A program made the translations under genes and the position numbers. This document shows positions 4,932 through 30,177 of a DNA stretch of 64,000 nucleotides, piece after piece. The stretch's first letter is position 1. Each line of letters begins with the position of its first letter. Under the pieces are notes generated by a model that worked only from the letters and a program-made list of their open reading frames with translations, ran no database searches and was not told where the DNA came from. Source of the stretch: Aquabacterium sp. OR-4 (GTDB lineage Bacteria > Pseudomonadota > Gammaproteobacteria > Burkholderiales > Burkholderiaceae_C); contig NZ_JAOCQD020000001.1 in assembly GCF_025290835.2 (NCBI RefSeq), positions 1,798,001 through 1,862,000 on the forward strand. The letters are read 5' to 3'.

Positions 4932-5393
4932 ATGGTGGTCTGGACCGATGAGCATGCGCTCGGTCTGGACGAACTCGATGCCCAGCATCGCCTGTTGTTC
5001 GACCTGACCAACGACCTGTGGCACCACCTGGTGCGCCGCAGCGCCCGCACCGAGGTGCTGGCCACGCTGACGGCGCTGGAGCGTTATGCGCTGTCGCATT
5101 TTTCGGCCGAAGAGACCTTCATGCGCGTGACCTGCTATCCGCACATCGACGCGCACACCGCCGAGCACGCCGAGTTCATCGAGCGGGTGTCACGCGAAAA
5201 AACCGCGGTGATGCAGGGCCATGCGCTGGGTTTCGACCTGCTGAGCTACCTGAAGAACTGGCTCACCGAGCACATCCTACGCGCCGACAAGGATTTCGCC
5301 CACCTGGCCCGCGCCTGCCACCCCGAACTGGCCCTGCCCGCAGATACCGCCGGCGCACCGGGCTTCTGGCGGCGCCTGCGCGCGCGCTGGTGA
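4932..5393 (+). CDS. Bacteriohemerythrin
   Basis: A 153-aa four-helix O2-binding di-iron protein, normal length for the family. The full ligand set is visible: His19 (LDAQH), His56 and Glu60 (SHFSAEE), His75 and His79 (HTAEH), His114 and Asp119 (TEHILRAD). The start ATG 4932 (MVVWTDEHALGLDELD) gives the standard N-terminal Trp pattern; the same frame is open further upstream but without family similarity. It lies 339 bases after bphP. It probably buffers, carries or senses oxygen in the cytoplasm; no signalling domain is fused to it. Confidence 0.93.
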   Translation: MVVWTDEHALGLDELDAQHRLLFDLTNDLWHHLVRRSARTEVLATLTALERYALSHFSAEETFMRVTCYPHIDAHTAEHAEFIERVSREKTAVMQGHALGFDLLSYLKNWLTEHILRADKDFAHLARACHPELALPADTAGAPGFWRRLRARW

Positions 5394-5455
5394 TGCCGGT
5401 GCCGGGCCGCACGCGATCCATGCGCAGCGGCAGGCACCACGCGGCCGCCAGGCCC

Positions 5456-5491
5456 CAAACGAAACGGGCCGCGTCAGCTGACGCGGCCCGT
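5456..5491 (-). terminator. Rho-independent terminator after tRNA-Pro
   Basis: A perfect palindrome spans 5464-5491 (arms of 14 bases, centre AGCT). Reading the minus strand it is followed by TTTCGTTT, so it terminates the tRNA transcript coming from 5506-5582. Confidence 0.8.
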
Positions 5492-5505
5492 GTTCGATGA
5501 TGACT

Positions 5506-5582
5506 TGGTCGGGGCGATAGGATTCGAACCTACGACCCTCTGCTCCCAAAGCAGATGCGCTACCAGACTGCGCTACACCCCG
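5506..5582 (-). tRNA. tRNA-Pro (anticodon TGG)
   Basis: A 77-nt cloverleaf on the minus strand with encoded 3' CCA. The acceptor stem CGGGGTG pairs with the CGCCCCG end, the anticodon loop is TTTGGGA with anticodon TGG, and the T loop is GGTTCGAATCC. It reads proline codons CCN. No integration scar is seen next to it. Confidence 0.97.
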
Positions 5583-5637
5583 AAGCTGCGCATTCTAGCC
5601 GGCCGGGCTGCGGCCACCCGGCCTGCCCGTGCGGGGC

Positions 5638-24096: not shown

Positions 24097-24137
24097 GATA
24101 ATCCGCGCCACCGCCCTTGCCGCCACGCCGACCGATG
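24097..24137 (+). promoter_or_regulatory. Displaced xthA promoter and start codon
   Basis: A GATAAT -10-like box (24097-24102) lies 33 bases before ATGAAACTCGCCACCTGA (24135-24152). The first five codons (Met-Lys-Leu-Ala-Thr) are those of xthA, then a stop. This is what remains of the original xthA start region, now cut off from the gene by the island. The same GATAAT-near-ATG layout is seen before thyA and map. Confidence 0.65.
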
Positions 24138-24151
24138 AAACTCGCCACCTG
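24136..24151 (+). repeat. attL: left 16-bp direct repeat
   Basis: TGAAACTCGCCACCTG, identical to 29411-29426. It holds codons 1-5 of the original xthA. Confidence 0.85.
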
Positions 24152-24280
24152 AACTGTGCATGGGGGTCCTGGGCGATTCCAGGATGTCCCAGGTTGTCCT
24201 GAATACCCTATATGTGACAACGACTTAGCGACACACCTTGTCTCAAGCCGTTCCGGCCGATTTCTTGAGATCCCGATCGG

Positions 24281-24322
24281 CTGGGGGTATGGTTGGGGGT
24301 ACGGATCGACCGATACCCCCAG
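24281..24322. promoter_or_regulatory. Arm-type integrase binding sites (left)
   Basis: Two direct copies of TGGGGGTA, 12 bases apart (24282-24289, 24294-24301), and one inverted copy (24314-24321), directly before the integrase start. The same doublet with identical 12-base spacing occurs at the right end (29337-29356). Tyrosine integrases of this group have such arm repeats; the role is inferred. Confidence 0.6.
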
Positions 24323-25257
24323 TGCTGACGACCCTTCAGATCAAGTCGGCCAAGCCGGCCGAACGTGCCTACAAGCTGGCCGACACGGGTGGCCTGTTCG
24401 TCCTCGTCCAGCCCAACGGCTCGAAGCTCTGGCGCTACAAGTTCAGGCTGGACGGCGTCGAAGGTCTGCAGGCGCTCGGGGCGTTCCCCGAGGTCACGCT
24501 CGCCGACGCGCGGCACGCGCACGCAGAGTCGCGCAAGCTAGTTGCCAAGGGCGTTCACCCCGTCCAAGCTCGGCGCGATGAACGAGAGAGTCGCGCCCAG
24601 GCGGAACTACACCGCGTCAAGGGCAGCTTCGGCGCGGTGTGTGCCGACTGGAATGCCGCGACGGGTGCGGACCTTCGGCCAGCGACGGTCCTGCAGCGCA
24701 ACCGGGAGATCGAGAAGGACCTGACGCCCCGCTTCAAGGACCGGCCGATCTCGAAGATCACGCGCCTCGAACTGACCACTGCGCTGAAAGAGGTTGAGGC
24801 AAGAGCACCCGAGGTCGCGCGAAACCTGCGCAACTACCTGTGGGGCATCTTCGAGTACGCCATCGACTCCGGGCTGATCGCCGACAACCCCGTGCCGCCG
24901 GTTCGCGTGCTGCGCAAGCGCAACCAGGAGAACCACCCCGCCCTATCGCCCGACTTGCTGGGTGAGTTCCTGCGCAAGTTGGATGCCATCGACACGATCC
25001 ACGAGCAGACGCGGATCGCGATGCTGCTCGTCGTGTTGACGGCCTGTCGCAAGGCCGAAGTCACCGGCGGCAAGTGGAGCGAGATCGACCTGAAAGCAGC
25101 CGAGTGGGAAATCCCCGCCGACCGGATGAAGGCCGGCCGCGCCCACTGGGTGCCGCTCTCCCGTCAGTGCGTGAAGCTGCTGCAGGAGCTGCGGGCGCTC
25201 GTTCCCGAGGGCAGCGTCTACTTGTTCCCCAATCGACTCGATCCCGATCGGCCGATG
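24322..25257 (+). pseudogene. Tyrosine integrase (P4/DUF4102 type), C-terminus lost
   Basis: About 312 codons of a P4-type integrase starting at GTG 24322. The DUF4102 N-terminus (LQIKSAKPAERAYKLADTGG; WRYKFRLDG; LGAFPEVTLADAR) and core-binding domain are present, as is the first catalytic region with Arg in [18 protein letters not shown]. Homology stops after [15 protein letters not shown], exactly where sequence antisense to radC begins; the frame runs on to 25749 without integrase similarity. The HxxR and catalytic Tyr boxes are missing, so it cannot recombine DNA. The remaining copy still marks the attL side. Confidence 0.88.
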
Positions 25258-25626
25258 GCTGTGCGCCAGGATCACCGCCGCAGCGTTCAGCGACAGCGCT
25301 TCCTTCACCACCTCGCGCGGGTACACCGAGGTCTGCGTCACCGTGCCGCGAAACATCTGCTTCAGCGCGATGATCCGGTGCTGCGCATCGAGGAACAGCA
25401 CGCAGAACACCTCGTGCTCCAGCACCCCGATCTCCAACCGCAGATGGTCCTTCACCGCTTGCGGCGACGACATCGTGGCACCACGCCGCACGCGGTGGGC
25501 CAGCACGCGCCGCGCGTGGCTCAGCACCTCGTCGGCAAGTGCCGGTCGGTACTGGCCGTCGACATCGCGCACCAGCAGCGCATCGCTCGCAACGGCAGCA
25601 GAAGAAGGGATCGAAGAAGACGACAT
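25255..25626 (-). pseudogene. radC: RadC/JAB-domain protein, C-terminus lost
   Basis: The N-terminal 124 residues of a mobile-element RadC. Visible are [40 protein letters not shown] and ILAHSH, which is the HxH of the JAMM metal motif. The next residues should be PSG...PS..D but read RPIGIES, which is antisense integrase sequence; the frame stops at 24943. The metal-binding Asp is lost. RadC-like genes of this kind are common cargo of integrative elements. Start ATG 25626. Confidence 0.87.
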
Positions 25627-25850
25627 GGCGGACTCCGGTGTGTCGGGCGGGATTGCCCGAGACCGGAGCACCACGGCGCAGCGCAGCCGTCAGGGTTCGA
25701 AGACGGCCGCAGGCCGCAAGCGCTCGCCCCGCGAGCGCGCAGACCTTGACGGCGAGAACGGCGTGGTAGCGTGGGTCGACACGGCAAGCCCACACGACCT
25801 TTCCATGAGTGAGGCCCGTACCAGGGCCCTGGCTTCCTTCGCGCGCGGAG

Positions 25851-26099
25851 CTATCGCGCTTTGTTTGCCTGGGCGAGCACTGAAGCCGCCAGTTCCTTGG
25901 TCTCGTCAGCGTAGCGACTACTGGCGAGGACGCGCGCCGCAACATCCTCCATGACGGCCCCCGACTGTCTGCCGGTACCGCGCTGAGCAAGGGCTGAGGC
26001 GGCCAGACTTCGGGCTACCTGTGATGCTCGCGGATCCTGAAGCGTTTCGGCCGCGAGCTTCGCTACGCGGGTCGAGGTCTGTTTGACGTTCTTACTCAT
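25851..26099 (-). CDS. Small conserved protein of mobile regions
   Basis: An 82-aa protein (starts MSKNVKQTSTRVAKLAAETL). Two Ala/Ser/Leu-rich segments repeat the theme VA.L AA.TL...A...A.SALAQ: one at about 12-39 (ending SLAASALAQ) and one at about 51-77 (ending ELAASVLAQAN). I recall similar small proteins from genomic islands, often near ImmA/IrrE genes, but know no function. It follows the XRE-ImmA gene on the same strand with 17 bases between, so it is likely part of that operon. The 220 bases upstream of radC, next to it, hold no clear gene. Confidence 0.65.
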   Translation of the reverse strand: MSKNVKQTSTRVAKLAAETLQDPRASQVARSLAASALAQRGTGRQSGAVMEDVAARVLASSRYADETKELAASVLAQANKAR

Positions 26100-26116
26100 T
26101 CAACCTCCGTCAGATA

Positions 26117-27325
26117 TCAGTTCTTGCGTGGACTGCGAAAGGGCACCACCGTACTGGGTACATGCGACGAGCTCGCGGGCACTTCCGAAGGCTGCCGAAT
26201 GCGCGCGAGTTGAACCACATTGCCACGGCCTTGAAAGTAGCCCTCCGGCAACCCAGCAAGCATTTCAATGTCATGGGCAGCGAGCCCAAGATGACGAGGG
26301 ATCGCTTCCAGCGGCATGACGTTCTCTTCGACGAGTAGGTCGATCGTGCGACGTAGCAGGCGCGGACGCTCAGGCGGCCTGTCGCCATCGCCCGGCTCGG
26401 ACTTGGCACCCCATCGAGCTGATCGGCGCTTGAACAGCGCTTGAGCACCGTCAGCGTCCAGCATCTTCAGAGCACGCAACCGCATCACGATCGCGCCAAC
26501 GGAAACACCCCAGCGTCGTTTGAGCAGCAACAGATCGTCCAAGGTGACCGGCATACGCACCTCGGACGCGAAGGTCTCCGCAGGGAGCAGAAACGCGCCG
26601 GCGAAGTTATGCGCTTGCTGCTCAAGCTGCTTGTGGCGCTCGCGATCTGTGGGTCGAGCGACGTGCCTGTGCAGGACGAGGTGGCCGATTTCATGCGCAA
26701 GATCAAAGCGACTTCGGTACCCGTTGTCTTTGTCCGCGGAGAGGAGCACCAGCGGCCGACCGAGTGCCGCACTCCACGCGGACAGCCCCTCGATCTGAGC
26801 GATCCCCGTTTCTTCGCGGATAAGTACGACTCCAGCGCCTTCAACAGCCAGCGCTAGATCCTGGATGGCCGATCGACCGAGCCGCCAGAGATCGCGACAC
26901 TCCGACGCCGCCAGTTCGATCTCTTCGCTTGTGATCTGCTCAGGGTCGGTGAAGTTTCGGCTCGGGAGGTTCAACGCCGGGAAGTCTACGAACTCAGTCA
27001 AGGCCAACGCGATGTCTTGAGCCCACTCCATCCGAGCTTCCAGCATGGCTCGCGCAGCCACATGCGCGGAGGCGTTGCTCCGGAAGAGCGGCAATGAAAC
27101 CTTCTCCGCAGGAGGCCTGGTAAACCATTCGGGCGTCACATTGACAACGCCGGCCAATCGATCGAGCGCTTCTCGCTCTGGAGCTTGGGCTCCAGCGCGC
27201 CACTTGCTCACCGTCGCTGGCGACACCCCCACGAGCGAAGCGAGCTGCGCTTGGGTCAGGCGGCGCGCGGCCAGCATCTGGCTTAGGCGATCGCTCTGAA
27301 ACCCCTGAACGCCACCGCGGCTCAT
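26117..27325 (-). CDS. XRE-family regulator fused to ImmA/IrrE metallopeptidase
   Basis: A 402-aa protein. The XRE-type HTH at about 13-60 (LTQAQLASLVGVSPATVSKW) is followed by an ImmA/IrrE domain with zinc motif HEIGH at 211-215 (FDLAHEIGHLVLH) and the downstream QQAHNFAGAFLLP containing the third ligand region. A C-terminal extension of about 110 residues has no clear domain. Proteins of this build act as repressors or as proteases that cleave repressors of mobile elements, and occur as toxin-antitoxin-like pairs. ATG 27325 overlaps the stop of the upstream partner (ATGA). Direct repeats upstream of the operon are candidate binding sites. Confidence 0.88.
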   Translation of the reverse strand: MSRGGVQGFQSDRLSQMLAARRLTQAQLASLVGVSPATVSKWRAGAQAPEREALDRLAGVVNVTPEWFTRPPAEKVSLPLFRSNASAHVAARAMLEARMEWAQDIALALTEFVDFPALNLPSRNFTDPEQITSEEIELAASECRDLWRLGRSAIQDLALAVEGAGVVLIREETGIAQIEGLSAWSAALGRPLVLLSADKDNGYRSRFDLAHEIGHLVLHRHVARPTDRERHKQLEQQAHNFAGAFLLPAETFASEVRMPVTLDDLLLLKRRWGVSVGAIVMRLRALKMLDADGAQALFKRRSARWGAKSEPGDGDRPPERPRLLRRTIDLLVEENVMPLEAIPRHLGLAAHDIEMLAGLPEGYFQGRGNVVQLARIRQPSEVPASSSHVPSTVVPFRSPRKN

Positions 27326-27984
27326 GACGAGGTGCCGTCCACGTCCTTCTTGCCGATGTTCTTCTTGAGCTTCGGCACGGCCAAGTCGATTTGGCTGGGC
27401 TCTTGGACGTCATAGCGCTTGGCGAAGACCTCCAGCGGCTCGCGGAACAGCCAGCCGCGCATGTACCGGTCGGGTACTGCGATCTGGATCGAGGTGGGCG
27501 ATTCAGGCTGGATCTGCAGAGACCCCGAGAAGCAAGCCACGAAGAACGCCACGGCTTCAGCCGGCGGCTGGTACTGATCGAACAACTCCGGCTGCACAAG
27601 TGGCTCGATGGCCTTGTTTGCGAACGCCATCTGGCGGCGTGTCTGGCTGCGGCGTCCGTTGATCCAGAACCCTTCGGGAATGTTGAACCTGGCGAGGGTG
27701 AAGACGCCAGTGCGGCCGGTGACCAAGCCGTTGCCCTGGATGGCCGTAGGCGTCGCCTCAGCCGCCGCAAGCGCGCGGTAGAAGGCTTCGTTCATGTTGA
27801 AGTGCCTCAGCTGGCCGACGACATGCGGGAGGTGGCCTTCATCCATCCCCTTGGCTGCGGCGTACGCTCGCGCAGCACCTGCATTGAGTGCGTCTTCGAC
27901 GCCGAGCACAAGCTCGCGCGGGATGCTGCGCAGGAGCAGGCCTGGGATCGTGTCCTTGGTGGGCGGATTCATGCTCTGGGTCAC
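27322..27984 (-). CDS. Unknown 220-aa partner of the XRE-ImmA protein
   Basis: A soluble protein of 216-220 aa. Segments that look conserved-type are IPGLLLRSIPRELVLGVEDAL, LRHFNMNEAFYRALA, LARFNIPEGFWINGRRSQTR and PDRYMRGWLFREPLEVFAKRYDV. No catalytic motif or domain that I know. It starts at GTG 27984 or ATG 27972, and its stop overlaps the XRE-ImmA ATG (ATGA), so the two are made together. First gene of a three-gene operon (220 aa, XRE-ImmA, 82 aa). It could be the effector, or the target, of the metallopeptidase; this is inference from position only. Confidence 0.7.
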   Translation of the reverse strand: MTQSMNPPTKDTIPGLLLRSIPRELVLGVEDALNAGAARAYAAAKGMDEGHLPHVVGQLRHFNMNEAFYRALAAAEATPTAIQGNGLVTGRTGVFTLARFNIPEGFWINGRRSQTRRQMAFANKAIEPLVQPELFDQYQPPAEAVAFFVACFSGSLQIQPESPTSIQIAVPDRYMRGWLFREPLEVFAKRYDVQEPSQIDLAVPKLKKNIGKKDVDGTSS

Positions 27985-27994
27985 CTCGTCATCG

Positions 27995-28035
27995 ATTTCG
28001 CTTAGGCGGATTCTATACTTATTTTATTTCGCTTA
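27995..28035 (-). promoter_or_regulatory. Promoter with paired operator repeats for the XRE-ImmA operon
   Basis: ATTTCGCTTA occurs twice in direct orientation, at 27995-28004 and 28026-28035, 31 bases apart (three helical turns). Between them, on the minus strand, is a TATAGA/TAGAAT -10-like sequence (28009-28017). The repeats flank the promoter of the 220-aa gene, a layout expected for autoregulation by the operon's own HTH protein. Confidence 0.5.
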
Positions 28036-28108
28036 ACCAGTTTGGATCGTGGGTGCGCACAGGCCCCTCATCGAGGAGCGCACCTGAAGCCTCCAGGAAC
28101 CGATCCAC

Positions 28109-28143
28109 TTGAATTTCGTCAGAATTCGTTTCATACTTCTGAC
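28109..28143 (+). promoter_or_regulatory. Promoter and operator of the AbiE-like pair
   Basis: TTGAAT (28109-28114), a 17-base spacer and CATACT (28132-28137) form a good sigma-70 promoter. A 7-bp inverted repeat, GTCAGAA (28118-28124) and TTCTGAC (28137-28143), spans the -10 box. AbiEi antitoxins repress their own promoter through inverted repeats, so this is a likely operator. Confidence 0.55.
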
Positions 28144-28152
28144 AGCCAAGGA

Positions 28153-28755
28153 ATGAACGTGTCCAACCTCGCCCAGCAAGTCCTCGCGCACGCCGCCTCG
28201 ATGCCGGAAGGCGCCAGCCTGTCCGCCAAGGCCCTGCTGCACCTGGGCAGCCGGGCTGCGGTGGATCAGGCGCTGTCGCGCCTGGCGCGCAGCGGCGAAC
28301 TGCTGCGCGCCGGGCGGGGCGTCTACGTCCTGCCGGTGAAGGGCAAGTTCGGCGCACGGGCACCGGAAGTCGCCAAGGTGGTCCAAGAATGGGCCAGCCA
28401 GCGCGGCGAAACGGTCGTCGGTAACGGCGCGGCTGCAGCGAATGCGCTGGGTCTGACGACCCAGGTGCCGGTGCGCCAGGTCTTCCTGACCTCGGGCCGC
28501 AGCCGCAAGCTCAAGCTCGGCGCGCAGACGGTCGAGTTGAAGCATGCCCCGCCGTGGCAACTGCTCTATCCAGGGCAGGCCGCGGGCGAAGCCATCCGCT
28601 CGCTGGCCTGGGTAGGGCCGTCGGGATCCCAAGCGGCGCTCGGTCAGCTCAGGCAAAGGCTGCCGGCGTCGGAACTGCTGGCCGTCGCCAACGCACGCGC
28701 GCGCCTGCCGACGTGGCTTGCGAGCCAGGTCAGCAGCCTGGTGACCCGTGCCTGA
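28153..28755 (+). CDS. AbiEi-type antitoxin (DUF6088 family)
   Basis: A 200-aa antitoxin and regulator of a type IV AbiE-like system. The N-terminal winged-helix part (GASLSAKALLHLGSRAAVDQ, LARSGELLRAGRGVYVLP) binds DNA; the C-terminal part (FLTSGRSRKLKLGAQTVELKH, LLYPGQAAGEAIRSLAW) is the DUF6088/AbiEi fold. The gene appears whole. ATG 28153 directly follows AAGGA; GTG 28159 would have ideal Shine-Dalgarno spacing and may be the true start. It overlaps the toxin gene by 8 bases. Confidence 0.82.
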   Translation: MNVSNLAQQVLAHAASMPEGASLSAKALLHLGSRAAVDQALSRLARSGELLRAGRGVYVLPVKGKFGARAPEVAKVVQEWASQRGETVVGNGAAAANALGLTTQVPVRQVFLTSGRSRKLKLGAQTVELKHAPPWQLLYPGQAAGEAIRSLAWVGPSGSQAALGQLRQRLPASELLAVANARARLPTWLASQVSSLVTRA

Positions 28756-29233
28756 ATACTTCGCCCTGCCGCGCGAGGATCAGCGCGAAGCGCTGCTCGT
28801 CGCGGCAGAGCGTTCGGGCCGTCCCCTGCACTTGCTCGAGAAGGACGTGTGGGTCGTCTGGGCCCTGCGCCACCTGTTCACCGGACCGCACGCGCAACAC
28901 CTGGTCTTCAAGGGCGGCACATCGCTCGACGCTGCCGGCTTCGCCGACAGCGCCGCGAAGGACCGCGCATTGGCGCTCGCCGTCGCAAAGCACAAGAGCA
29001 TCTTCTTCGCCGAATCGATGCCAGACGGTGCGCCCATCGACTACCGCGCAGCGGTCACCGGTGCACTGGATCTGGCACCGAGCGGCGAAGCGCGGAAGAC
29101 GCTGGCCGAGGACTACCAGCGCATGGTCGAGGACGGCCTGCTCTTGGACGACGCCGAACCCTTCGACGTCCTGCTGAAGCGTTGCCAGGCGCTTGCGCTC
29201 AAGGTGAACGCGGCGGCGCTGGGGGCCGCATGA
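28748..29233 (+). pseudogene. AbiEii-type nucleotidyltransferase toxin with internal deletion
   Basis: 161 aa where related toxins have about 290-310. The N-terminus (HLLEKDVWVVWALRHLF) and substrate motif VFKGGTSL (53-60) are intact. The expected continuation SKAYG...RFSEDID with the catalytic acidic residues is absent: VFKGGTSL joins directly to DAAGFADSAAKDRALALAVA, which is the C-terminal region (then HKSIFFAES, IDYRAAV, LAEDYQRMVEDGLLLDDAEPF). The frame is kept across the deletion. Without the acidic residues the protein should not transfer nucleotides. The start GTG 28748 lies within the antitoxin gene. Confidence 0.8.
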
Positions 29234-29335
29234 CGCTCTGCCCGCGCATCCAAGAACGCGTGCCGACGACCGCTTGTAGGATGGTGACAACAGATTGCCG
29301 CCCAGCGCCATCGCCTGGGTTCGCAGCGGAAAAAA

Positions 29336-29362
29336 CTGGGGGTATGCGTGGGGGTACCGACC
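29336..29362. promoter_or_regulatory. Arm-type integrase binding sites (right)
   Basis: Two copies of TGGGGGTA at 29337-29344 and 29349-29356, same order and 12-base spacing as at 24282-24301; the whole stretch CTGGGGGTAT..TGGGGGTAC..GA is shared between both ends. AT-rich sequence follows with TTCAATAAA repeated at 29367 and 29381. Confidence 0.6.
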
Positions 29363-29409
29363 ATACTTCAATAAATAAAGTTCAATAAAAACAGTAACTT
29401 AGGACTGCT

Positions 29410-30177
29410 TTGAAACTCGCCACCTGGAACGTCAATTCGCTGGCCGTGCGCCTGCCCCAGCTGCTGGACTGGCTGGCCGCGCAGCAGCCCGATGCGCTGG
29501 TGCTGCAGGAAACCAAGCTCACCGACGACAAGTTTCCGCACCAGGCCCTGGCCGAGGCGGGCTGGCACAGCGCCTGGCATGGCCAGAAAACCTACAACGG
29601 CGTGGCCCTGCTGGCGCGCGAGGCGCCACTGGACGTGGTGCGCAACATCCCCGGCTTTGCCGACGAGCAGGCGCGGGTGATTGCCGGCACGGTGGCCGGC
29701 GTGCGAGTGGTGGGGGCCTATTTCCCCAACGGCCAGGCGCCCGGCAGCGAGAAGTTTGCTTACAAGATGGGCTGGCTCGACGCACTGACCGCCTGGCTGC
29801 GCAGCGAGCTGGCCGCCCACCCGCGGCTGCTGTTGCTGGGCGACTACAACATCGCCCCCGACGACCGCGACGTGTTCGACCCGGTGGCCTGGGCCGGCCA
29901 GATCCATTGCACCGACGAAGAACGCGCGCATTTCCGCGCCCTGCTGGAGCTGGGCCTGCACGACGCGTTTCGCCTGTTCGAGCAGCCGCCCAAGAGCTGG
30001 AGCTGGTGGGATTACCGCAACCTCGCCTTCCGCAAGAACCAGGGCCTGCGCATCGACCACATCCTGGTCAGCGAGGCGCTGCGGGCGCAGGTGCGGCAGT
30101 GCAGCATCGACAAGCAGCCGCGGCGCAACGAGCGGCCCAGCGACCATGCACCGGTGATCGTCGAGTTGGCCATGTGA
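29410..30177 (+). CDS. xthA: Exodeoxyribonuclease III
   Basis: A 255-aa AP endonuclease/3'-5' exonuclease of the EEP fold for base-excision repair. Motifs: KLATWNVNSLAVRLPQLLDW, LQETKLTDDKFP (metal Glu), YFPNGQ, LGDYNIAPDDRDVFDP, SWWDYR, LRIDHILVS and the terminal catalytic PSDHAPV. Complete and of normal length. It now begins with TTG because the island's right end supplies T where the original gene had ATG (remnant at 24135). AGGA at 29401-29404 gives a five-base spacing to TTG, so the island also provides the ribosome binding site. Transcription must start within the AT-rich island end. Confidence 0.95.
   Translation: MKLATWNVNSLAVRLPQLLDWLAAQQPDALVLQETKLTDDKFPHQALAEAGWHSAWHGQKTYNGVALLAREAPLDVVRNIPGFADEQARVIAGTVAGVRVVGAYFPNGQAPGSEKFAYKMGWLDALTAWLRSELAAHPRLLLLGDYNIAPDDRDVFDPVAWAGQIHCTDEERAHFRALLELGLHDAFRLFEQPPKSWSWWDYRNLAFRKNQGLRIDHILVSEALRAQVRQCSIDKQPRRNERPSDHAPVIVELAM
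29411..29426 (+). repeat. attR: right 16-bp direct repeat
   Basis: TGAAACTCGCCACCTG, identical to 24136-24151, lying in codons 1-6 of the present xthA. Confidence 0.85.

Follow-up and report, generated by a model that had tools for sequence, protein, structure and literature searches.

SXT/R391 integrative and conjugative elements insert in the 5′ end of the conserved gene prfC, and the element supplies a new 5′ end. Islands and prophages in dusA, reported from over 200 bacteria, also supply a new 5′ end and carry semiconserved direct repeats of 21 bp, and putative promoters are described before and after insertion (Farrugia et al. 2015, PMC4482086). In Streptococcus pyogenes, SpyCI occupies the 5′ end of the DNA-repair gene mutL (PMC3430984, PMC4689407), and a promoter encoded by SpyCI is reported to be able to rescue the phenotype (PMC3430984). 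Here we describe a decayed integrase-type element at the start of xthA, a gene of the exonuclease III family, in Aquabacterium sp. OR-4. The element lies in a 64,000-nucleotide stretch of contig NZ_JAOCQD020000001.1 (positions 1,798,001 to 1,862,000), which we call the window and whose coordinates are used throughout. We are highly confident that this element has replaced the leader of xthA and that it belongs to a family of elements targeting this gene.

The SXT/R391 elements have another target and are large conjugative elements. With the dusA islands the locus shares a conserved target gene, direct repeats and an element-supplied 5′ end, and it works alike; its target is xthA, which places it outside that family, the duplication covers no more than the first codons and hardly alters the protein, whereas dusA is described as gaining a replacement β strand (PMC4482086). 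Like SpyCI, it is inserted at the 5′ end of a DNA-repair gene; the SpyCI case shows that such a gene may be placed under the promoter of an element. Host and type of element differ, and SpyCI is described as excising and reintegrating with growth state, thereby switching mutL, whereas the integrase of the window element is broken, the genome has only distant matches to it elsewhere and nothing points to a switch. Insertion at a 5′ end, which the initial annotation had called unusual, thus has precedents in dusA (PMC4482086) and mutL (PMC3430984). The kind of event is already known; what is new is xthA as the target and the integrase family that goes with it. In the literature searched, in which subscription papers are thinly covered, we found no earlier description of xthA or exonuclease III as an attachment site, nor of this integrase clade.

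The xthA start is duplicated at the ends of the element

The xthA gene is intact (29410–30177, + strand) and encodes 255 residues, 4–246 of which match PF03372 (E = 6.4e-33). In its own genome (G000) it is found with 100% identity at its own place, and the sole other match reaches 30%. The left end of the element, attL (24135–24152, + strand), reads ATG AAA CTC GCC ACC followed by TGA. The right end, attR (29410–29426, + strand), reads TTG AAA CTC GCC ACC TGG and opens the 255-residue frame, an element-supplied TTG and the core being joined to xthA codon 6 (TGG). The two ends share an identical core of 16 bp (24136–24151 and 29411–29426; direct-repeat family D12). Allowing up to two mismatches, the 17-mer TGAAACTCGCCACCTGG has two matches in the window, one exact and one with a single mismatch, against 0.01 expected. 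The element is 5.3 kb long, and the left core, at 24136, is the best point to take as its beginning. At the left end, the old xthA start forms a five-codon open reading frame (ORF) ending in TGA (24135–24152).

Inside both ends lies a direct repeat of 25 bp with two GGGGGTA units 12 bp apart (family D5). The left copy, GGGGGTATG-N3-GGGGGTAC, is at 24281–24305 and the right copy at 29336–29360, both on the + strand, and a similar repeat is present in the right ends of relatives. The repeats look like arm sites for the arm-binding domain of an integrase. The locus thus combines the two features of an integrative element, direct repeats at both ends and a tyrosine integrase gene adjoining one of them. 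The initial annotation had reported the two occurrences of the first xthA codons, had read the 16-bp core as an attachment site and had proposed a decayed island inserted site-specifically in these codons. All of this is upheld by the low expected number of matches, by half sites upstream of related integrases and by the recurrence of the pattern in many relatives. The integrase at the left end and the 25-bp repeat were absent from that annotation.

Related integrases are preceded by the xthA start

Scanning the integrase fragment against the genome_contigs collection (84,980 species) returned 45 loci: 20 near relatives (62–99% identity) for which sequence ahead of the gene is available; L035, also a near relative, on a contig that starts at the gene; the fragments L055, L058, L069 and L075; L074, a short match without a site; and 19 distant relatives (28–36%). 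All 20 near relatives have the start codons of xthA upstream of the integrase, at 102–211 bp from the matched frame. A mismatch-limited pattern recovered 11 of these 20 sites; inspection by eye and a looser pattern, scored with its background, each recovered all of them. The xthA start also precedes the fragments L055 and L058 and, judged by eye, L075 has a half site and L069 a degenerate form. Among the distant relatives, none of the 19 has an xthA start within 400 bp (pattern background 0.026 per 400 nt). The sixth codon of attL is TGA in 18 of the 20 near relatives, while L047 and L052 keep TGG and reach a stop within four codons. A tRNA or transfer-messenger RNA gene stands close before int in 10 of the 19 distant relatives (L054, L056, L057, L059, L060, L061, L063, L064, L073 and L076). 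These are related proteins (28–36% identity) at one end of a presumed element, but what precedes the integrase gene is a tRNA or transfer-messenger RNA gene, and the xthA half site is absent.

In a phylogenetic tree, the window integrase and its 20 near relatives form one clade with L035 (99 in the Shimodaira–Hasegawa-like approximate likelihood ratio test, SH-aLRT). We define this as the xthA-targeting integrase clade, with xthA codons upstream of int in the window and in 20 of 20 near relatives. A wider tree added viral and plasmid relatives and left out the partial or long-branch rows L062, L065, L072 and L073. It contains a 28-member clade (support 100/100) made up of all 23 xthA-type rows, L035 and four phage-contig integrases with another core. 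Two changes, for instance a gain followed by a loss or another such pair, account for the distribution of the xthA site on this tree. The four phage contigs (L132–L135) have related integrases (44–48%) and the same arm repeats with another core, which probably reflects a further change of target.

The xthA start was also found in attP-type arrangements. In the viral contig L131, P2-like GpU and GpD genes are followed by arm repeats, ATGAAAATCGCCACCTGA, arm repeats and int, which is the order of an attP site; at 5330–5620 this contig has an apparently complete attP, in which GGGGGTA arm repeats stand on both sides of the xthA start. An xthA-like start, ATGAAAATTGCCACCTGGAATGTG (L137, 5812), also lies upstream of the integrase in the circular plasmid NZ_CP100496.1. 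This 19-kb Atlantibacter plasmid has CHC2 zinc-finger, ParA and terminase-related genes, and the start encodes MKIATWNVN. It is apparently a plasmid-like form of the xthA-site elements. Judging from the attP-type sites in L131 and the plasmid, the xthA site seems to occur in phage-like as well as in plasmid-like elements. In the phage and plasmid records, no integrase relative reached 60% identity, and the best plasmid match, at 53%, is that of the Atlantibacter plasmid. The window element itself was not recovered from plasmids: its whole DNA gave only a 122-bp match, in one Variovorax plasmid.

Right ends and complete elements in other genomes

Near relatives or fragments of the integrase are held by 21 genomes, and xthA was found in 19 of these. 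A profile was built from six right ends, the window being left out, and compared with 99 control sequences. The sequence upstream of xthA in the window scores E = 6.5e-42 against this profile. A match stands directly before xthA in 16 of the 19 partner genomes at E = 0.0036 or better, the best of the 99 controls scoring 0.039; the 16 comprise the six training loci and ten others (8.6e-9 to 0.0036). Of 56 other genomes with a match, loci came back for 29; in these best-matching relatives, L018 (5e-31) and L012 (0.0011) alone scored better than the best control. The set of 29 includes L023, which is identical with the partner locus L079, as the coordinates identify G019 and G080 as one genome.

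Both ends were found on one contig in six elements, of 7827, 15612, 37259, 47599, 69066 and 71134 bp, the larger of which may be composites. The smallest is the L046 element of Jezberella montanilacus MWH-P2sevCIIIb, and that of 15.6 kb belongs to Diaphorobacter aerolatus KACC 16536; both isolates have a full-length integrase frame. A strict pattern scan, which undercounts elements, found 4 of 299 genomes of the bacterial family, including that of the window; judged by coordinates, G571 and G576 are the genomes of L042 and L045, and only G599 was new.

We also noticed a second type of right end, GTAGCYAG-N4-GTAGCCAG followed by an AT-rich stretch and the xthA start, in L039 (from 9771 to attL), L011/L122 and L023/L079. 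Its pattern occurs once each in three of six genomes searched: in G019 and G032 it precedes xthA, in L039 it precedes attL. No left partner was found in the six genomes. The position of this right end in L039, directly before the attL of another element, suggests a tandem insertion and a second integrase lineage with the same xthA target.

Empty sites and the native flank

The initial annotation had predicted that relatives lacking the island would have an intact ATG-initiated xthA directly after sequence like the left flank. This is seen most clearly for a genus-mate element, L058, whose integrase fragment is 99% identical to that of the window (78 residues). Its left flank and core match L020 (G014, same genus) at 91% over 317 bp, uninterrupted and into an intact xthA. 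Likewise, the flank of L037 matches L025 at 72% over 326 bp and runs into xthA. For the window's own flank the comparison is weaker (78% over 60 bp).

The closest counterpart of that flank is L013 in G004, of the same genus. In both, GATAATCC stands 38 nt before the ATG; in the window (24097–24104, + strand) it is the likely −10 element of the original xthA promoter, which would now be stranded beyond the element. Among 20 fetched upstream regions, that of G004 alone has homologues of thyA, folA, DUF4337 and GGDEF genes before xthA in the order of the window.

The replaced leader of xthA

The insertion leaves the xthA protein of the window unaltered (MKLATW either way), and the old upstream region remains on the far side of the element. 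What stands before the gene now is the right end. A Shine–Dalgarno-like AGGA (29401–29404, + strand) is supplied by the element and conserved as TTAGGACTGCT in L077, L078, L080 and L081. Further upstream, TTGTAGGATG (29274–29283, + strand) is a candidate promoter element for xthA, found at the same spacing in L077, L081, L018, L103, L003 and L022. The related pattern TGTANNAT(G/C) begins 135 nt before the xthA start in the window, L077, L081, L018, L003 and L022, 134 nt before it in L005 and 122 nt in L080, with a background of 0.0066 per 220 nt; L103 shares the TTGTAGGATG spacing. The promoter of xthA has likely been replaced as well. The AT-rich spacer of the right end could equally be a bending site or one of the integration host factor type.

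Several observations weigh against an xthA-targeting element with a replaced leader. Among the partner genomes, L086 (partner of L041) has no right end before xthA, L079 (partner of L058) bears the different type, and L078 has only 20 nt of upstream sequence, although these are identical to the last 20 of the window; many partner genomes are also metagenome-assembled, so that binning errors are possible. The window's own flank finds its best match at only 78% over 60 bp (L013, G004), and G004 has one extra gene beside xthA, of chemotaxis type as named from its translation, without a family search. In the leader itself, a promoter scan of the window found none before xthA, and in the right ends no −35 better than 3 of 6 was paired with the −10-like sites. 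Finally, TTG starts of xthA occur without sign of an island in L007, L009, L016, L017, L019 and L028.

Because island-free relatives also use TTG, we rejected this codon as a mark of the island. The initial annotation had derived a new start codon, a new Shine–Dalgarno sequence and, necessarily, a new promoter from the island end. The Shine–Dalgarno position holds, and similar sequence is kept in related right ends; a TTG is indeed supplied at 29410 but is not specific to islands; and the promoter goes from necessary to likely, with no sigma-70-type promoter found in the right end on the one hand and the conserved TTGTAGGATG about 135 nt upstream on the other. A strong sigma-70 promoter in the right end was rejected, as the scan did not find one.

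The right end might have no promoter of its own, with xthA read through from the co-directional abiEi and abiEii genes that end 176 nt upstream. Both genes immediately precede xthA on the + strand, the scan showed no terminator-like site in the interval 29233–29410, and right ends are without a good −35. However, TTGTAGGATG keeps its distance in L003 and L022, where DNA comparison found no abiE match in 5.7 and 7.2 kb upstream, and xthA of L046 begins some 650 nt beyond the last listed ORF. We therefore regard read-through as rather unlikely and favour a promoter within the right end.

Scar-like leaders in genus-mates

L003 and L022, in which no element was detected, share 52% ungapped identity with the right end of the window over 190 nt, in register. 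Most other relatives score 0.19–0.34. L005 reaches 0.41, L015 0.38 and L012 0.33, and the other right ends of the family, which come from more distant elements, reach 0.32–0.47, so that identity by itself cannot sort out the weaker cases. The arm repeats of L003, L005 and L022 have eroded, but all three keep the TGTAGGATG element and a start context (AGGA in L003 and L005, GGGA in L022). Among the 18 same-genus genomes with xthA other than that of the window, right-end similarity is found in L018, L012, L003 and L022, and weaker or different right ends in L005 and L023. The simplest reading is that L003, L005 and L022 are scars of lost elements, in which the right end would have been kept because it runs xthA.

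Alternatively, the right end could be a native xthA promoter captured long ago, in which case TTG-initiated genus-mates such as L003 and L022 would be native rather than scarred. In keeping with this, TGTANNAT(G/C) precedes xthA at other distances in L007, L009, L016 and L028, which have no right-end similarity, and TTG starts are common among xthA relatives. The native left flank of L032 has a similar start context (GAGGACCGCCTTG), matching L003, L005, L007 and L022 over 26–33 bp, and no integrase or abiE match was found upstream in L106, L108 and L120. Against it, the similarity of L003 and L022 to the right end of the window stays in register across the zone of the arm repeats, and this zone is part of the element, as the repeat recurs near the left end. 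Moreover, G006 (L018/L125) is intermediate, with a right end and an abiEii remnant but no integrase match in the available 6.3 kb. A captured native leader is thus doubtful, and we prefer to read these leaders as derived from elements.

Least credible, and given next to no weight, is that the xthA repeat itself is a product of chance or of partial duplication of the gene and not an attachment site: within the window only 16 bp are shared, but 0.01 matches were expected, on which a chance repeat was rejected, the half site is present in 20 of 20 near and 0 of 19 distant integrase relatives, and the right-end matches at partner xthA genes and the both-ended elements contradict it.

Cargo and decay of the element

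A promoter-like site (TTGAGA-17-TATGGT, 24265–24293, + strand) precedes the integrase gene; it comes from a consensus scan only, with one site found and 0.4 expected. The gene itself (24322–25259, + strand, with a putative GTG start at 24322) encodes a truncated tyrosine integrase with Arm-DNA-bind_3, Phage_int_M and a partial Phage_integrase domain (PF13356, PF22022, PF00589). It matches its near-identical relatives L032–L034 only up to 25259, where an antisense radC fragment follows. The first catalytic box (CRK) is retained, and the HGMR, HCLAH and AYN motifs of the full-length L033 are absent, so that the set of catalytic residues expected of a mobile element is incomplete. The radC-like fragment fused to the broken integrase (25255–25674, − strand; PF04002, positions 2–73 of 121) matches the related-island loci L035, L039 and L050 at 67–72% at the DNA level, which fits a deletion between int and radC. 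We considered a second integrase copy in the same genome that could excise the element, and rejected it: the other matches in G000 are distant, at 36%, 31%, 29% and 43%. The first two span most of the length; the last two are pieces of one gene, the 43% piece covering only 61 residues. Judged from its sequence, the element is no more than a remnant in this genome.

The remaining genes include an 82-residue ORF without a family match (25851–26099, − strand) and two predicted toxin–antitoxin systems. The first consists of a protein with a helix-turn-helix and an M78 protease (26117–27325, − strand), similar to the RmrA antitoxin of RosmerTA (PDLC03951, E = 8e-128), and an RmrT-like toxin partner (27322–27984, − strand; PDLC03937, E = 1.7e-21). 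An M78/ImmA-type protease antitoxin adjoining a toxin gene is the RosmerTA arrangement, in which ImmA-type protease antitoxins are described as paired with varied toxins (PMC10440598). The second comprises an AbiEi-like antitoxin (28153–28755, + strand, putative ATG start; PDLC02226, E = 3.9e-59) and an AbiEii-like gene (28748–29233, + strand). The latter has an internal deletion at 28924–28927, where 540 bp of L077 and L081 are missing, and matches PF08843 weakly at profile positions 2–24, so that the complete nucleotidyltransferase of an AbiE type IV toxin–antitoxin system is lacking.

Phage-defence toxin–antitoxin cargo of these kinds (RosmerTA-like, AbiE), or its remnants, recurs in elements at xthA: in the window (26117–27984 and 28153–29233), L046 (14063–14905), L113 (3132–3425, where the abiE match rests on DNA comparison) and L023/L079 (268–1088).

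Discussion

The initial annotation was right in its core, and its scope extends beyond a single unusual insertion to a whole family of elements. We propose that a tyrosine integrase of the Arm-DNA-bind_3 (P4-type) clade would recombine an attP on the element, which would hold a copy of the first xthA codons, with the chromosomal xthA start. Insertion strands the native upstream sequence at the left end, together with a stub of five codons, while the right end places arm sites, an AT-rich spacer, a Shine–Dalgarno-like sequence and a start codon ahead of xthA, probably along with the promoter now driving the gene. The outcome here is the same protein with its leader and upstream control region exchanged. 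Later deletions in this genome took away the integrase and some of the cargo, so that the replacement is probably fixed.

More tentatively, a wide clade of elements across Beta- and Gammaproteobacteria, including phages, plasmid-like elements, conjugative or defence islands and the remnants of all these, could share the start of xthA as a general attachment site, at which repeated insertion and decay would leave element-derived promoters behind as scars. We consider this possible, though still short of probable.

A conserved DNA-repair gene thus joins the protein genes that are targeted for integration at their 5′ ends, and the attachment sites are readable in islands, a phage contig and a plasmid. 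For annotation, an xthA start repeated before an Arm-DNA-bind_3 integrase is a signature that leads to exact-ended islands of about 8–71 kb. Close relatives also offer a natural experiment, in which the same repair gene stands under native, element-derived and scar-like control regions. If the broader reading is true, mobile DNA would repeatedly rewrite the expression of a core repair gene (exonuclease III/AP endonuclease), and where elements are intact, the expression of xthA may still depend on their state of integration.

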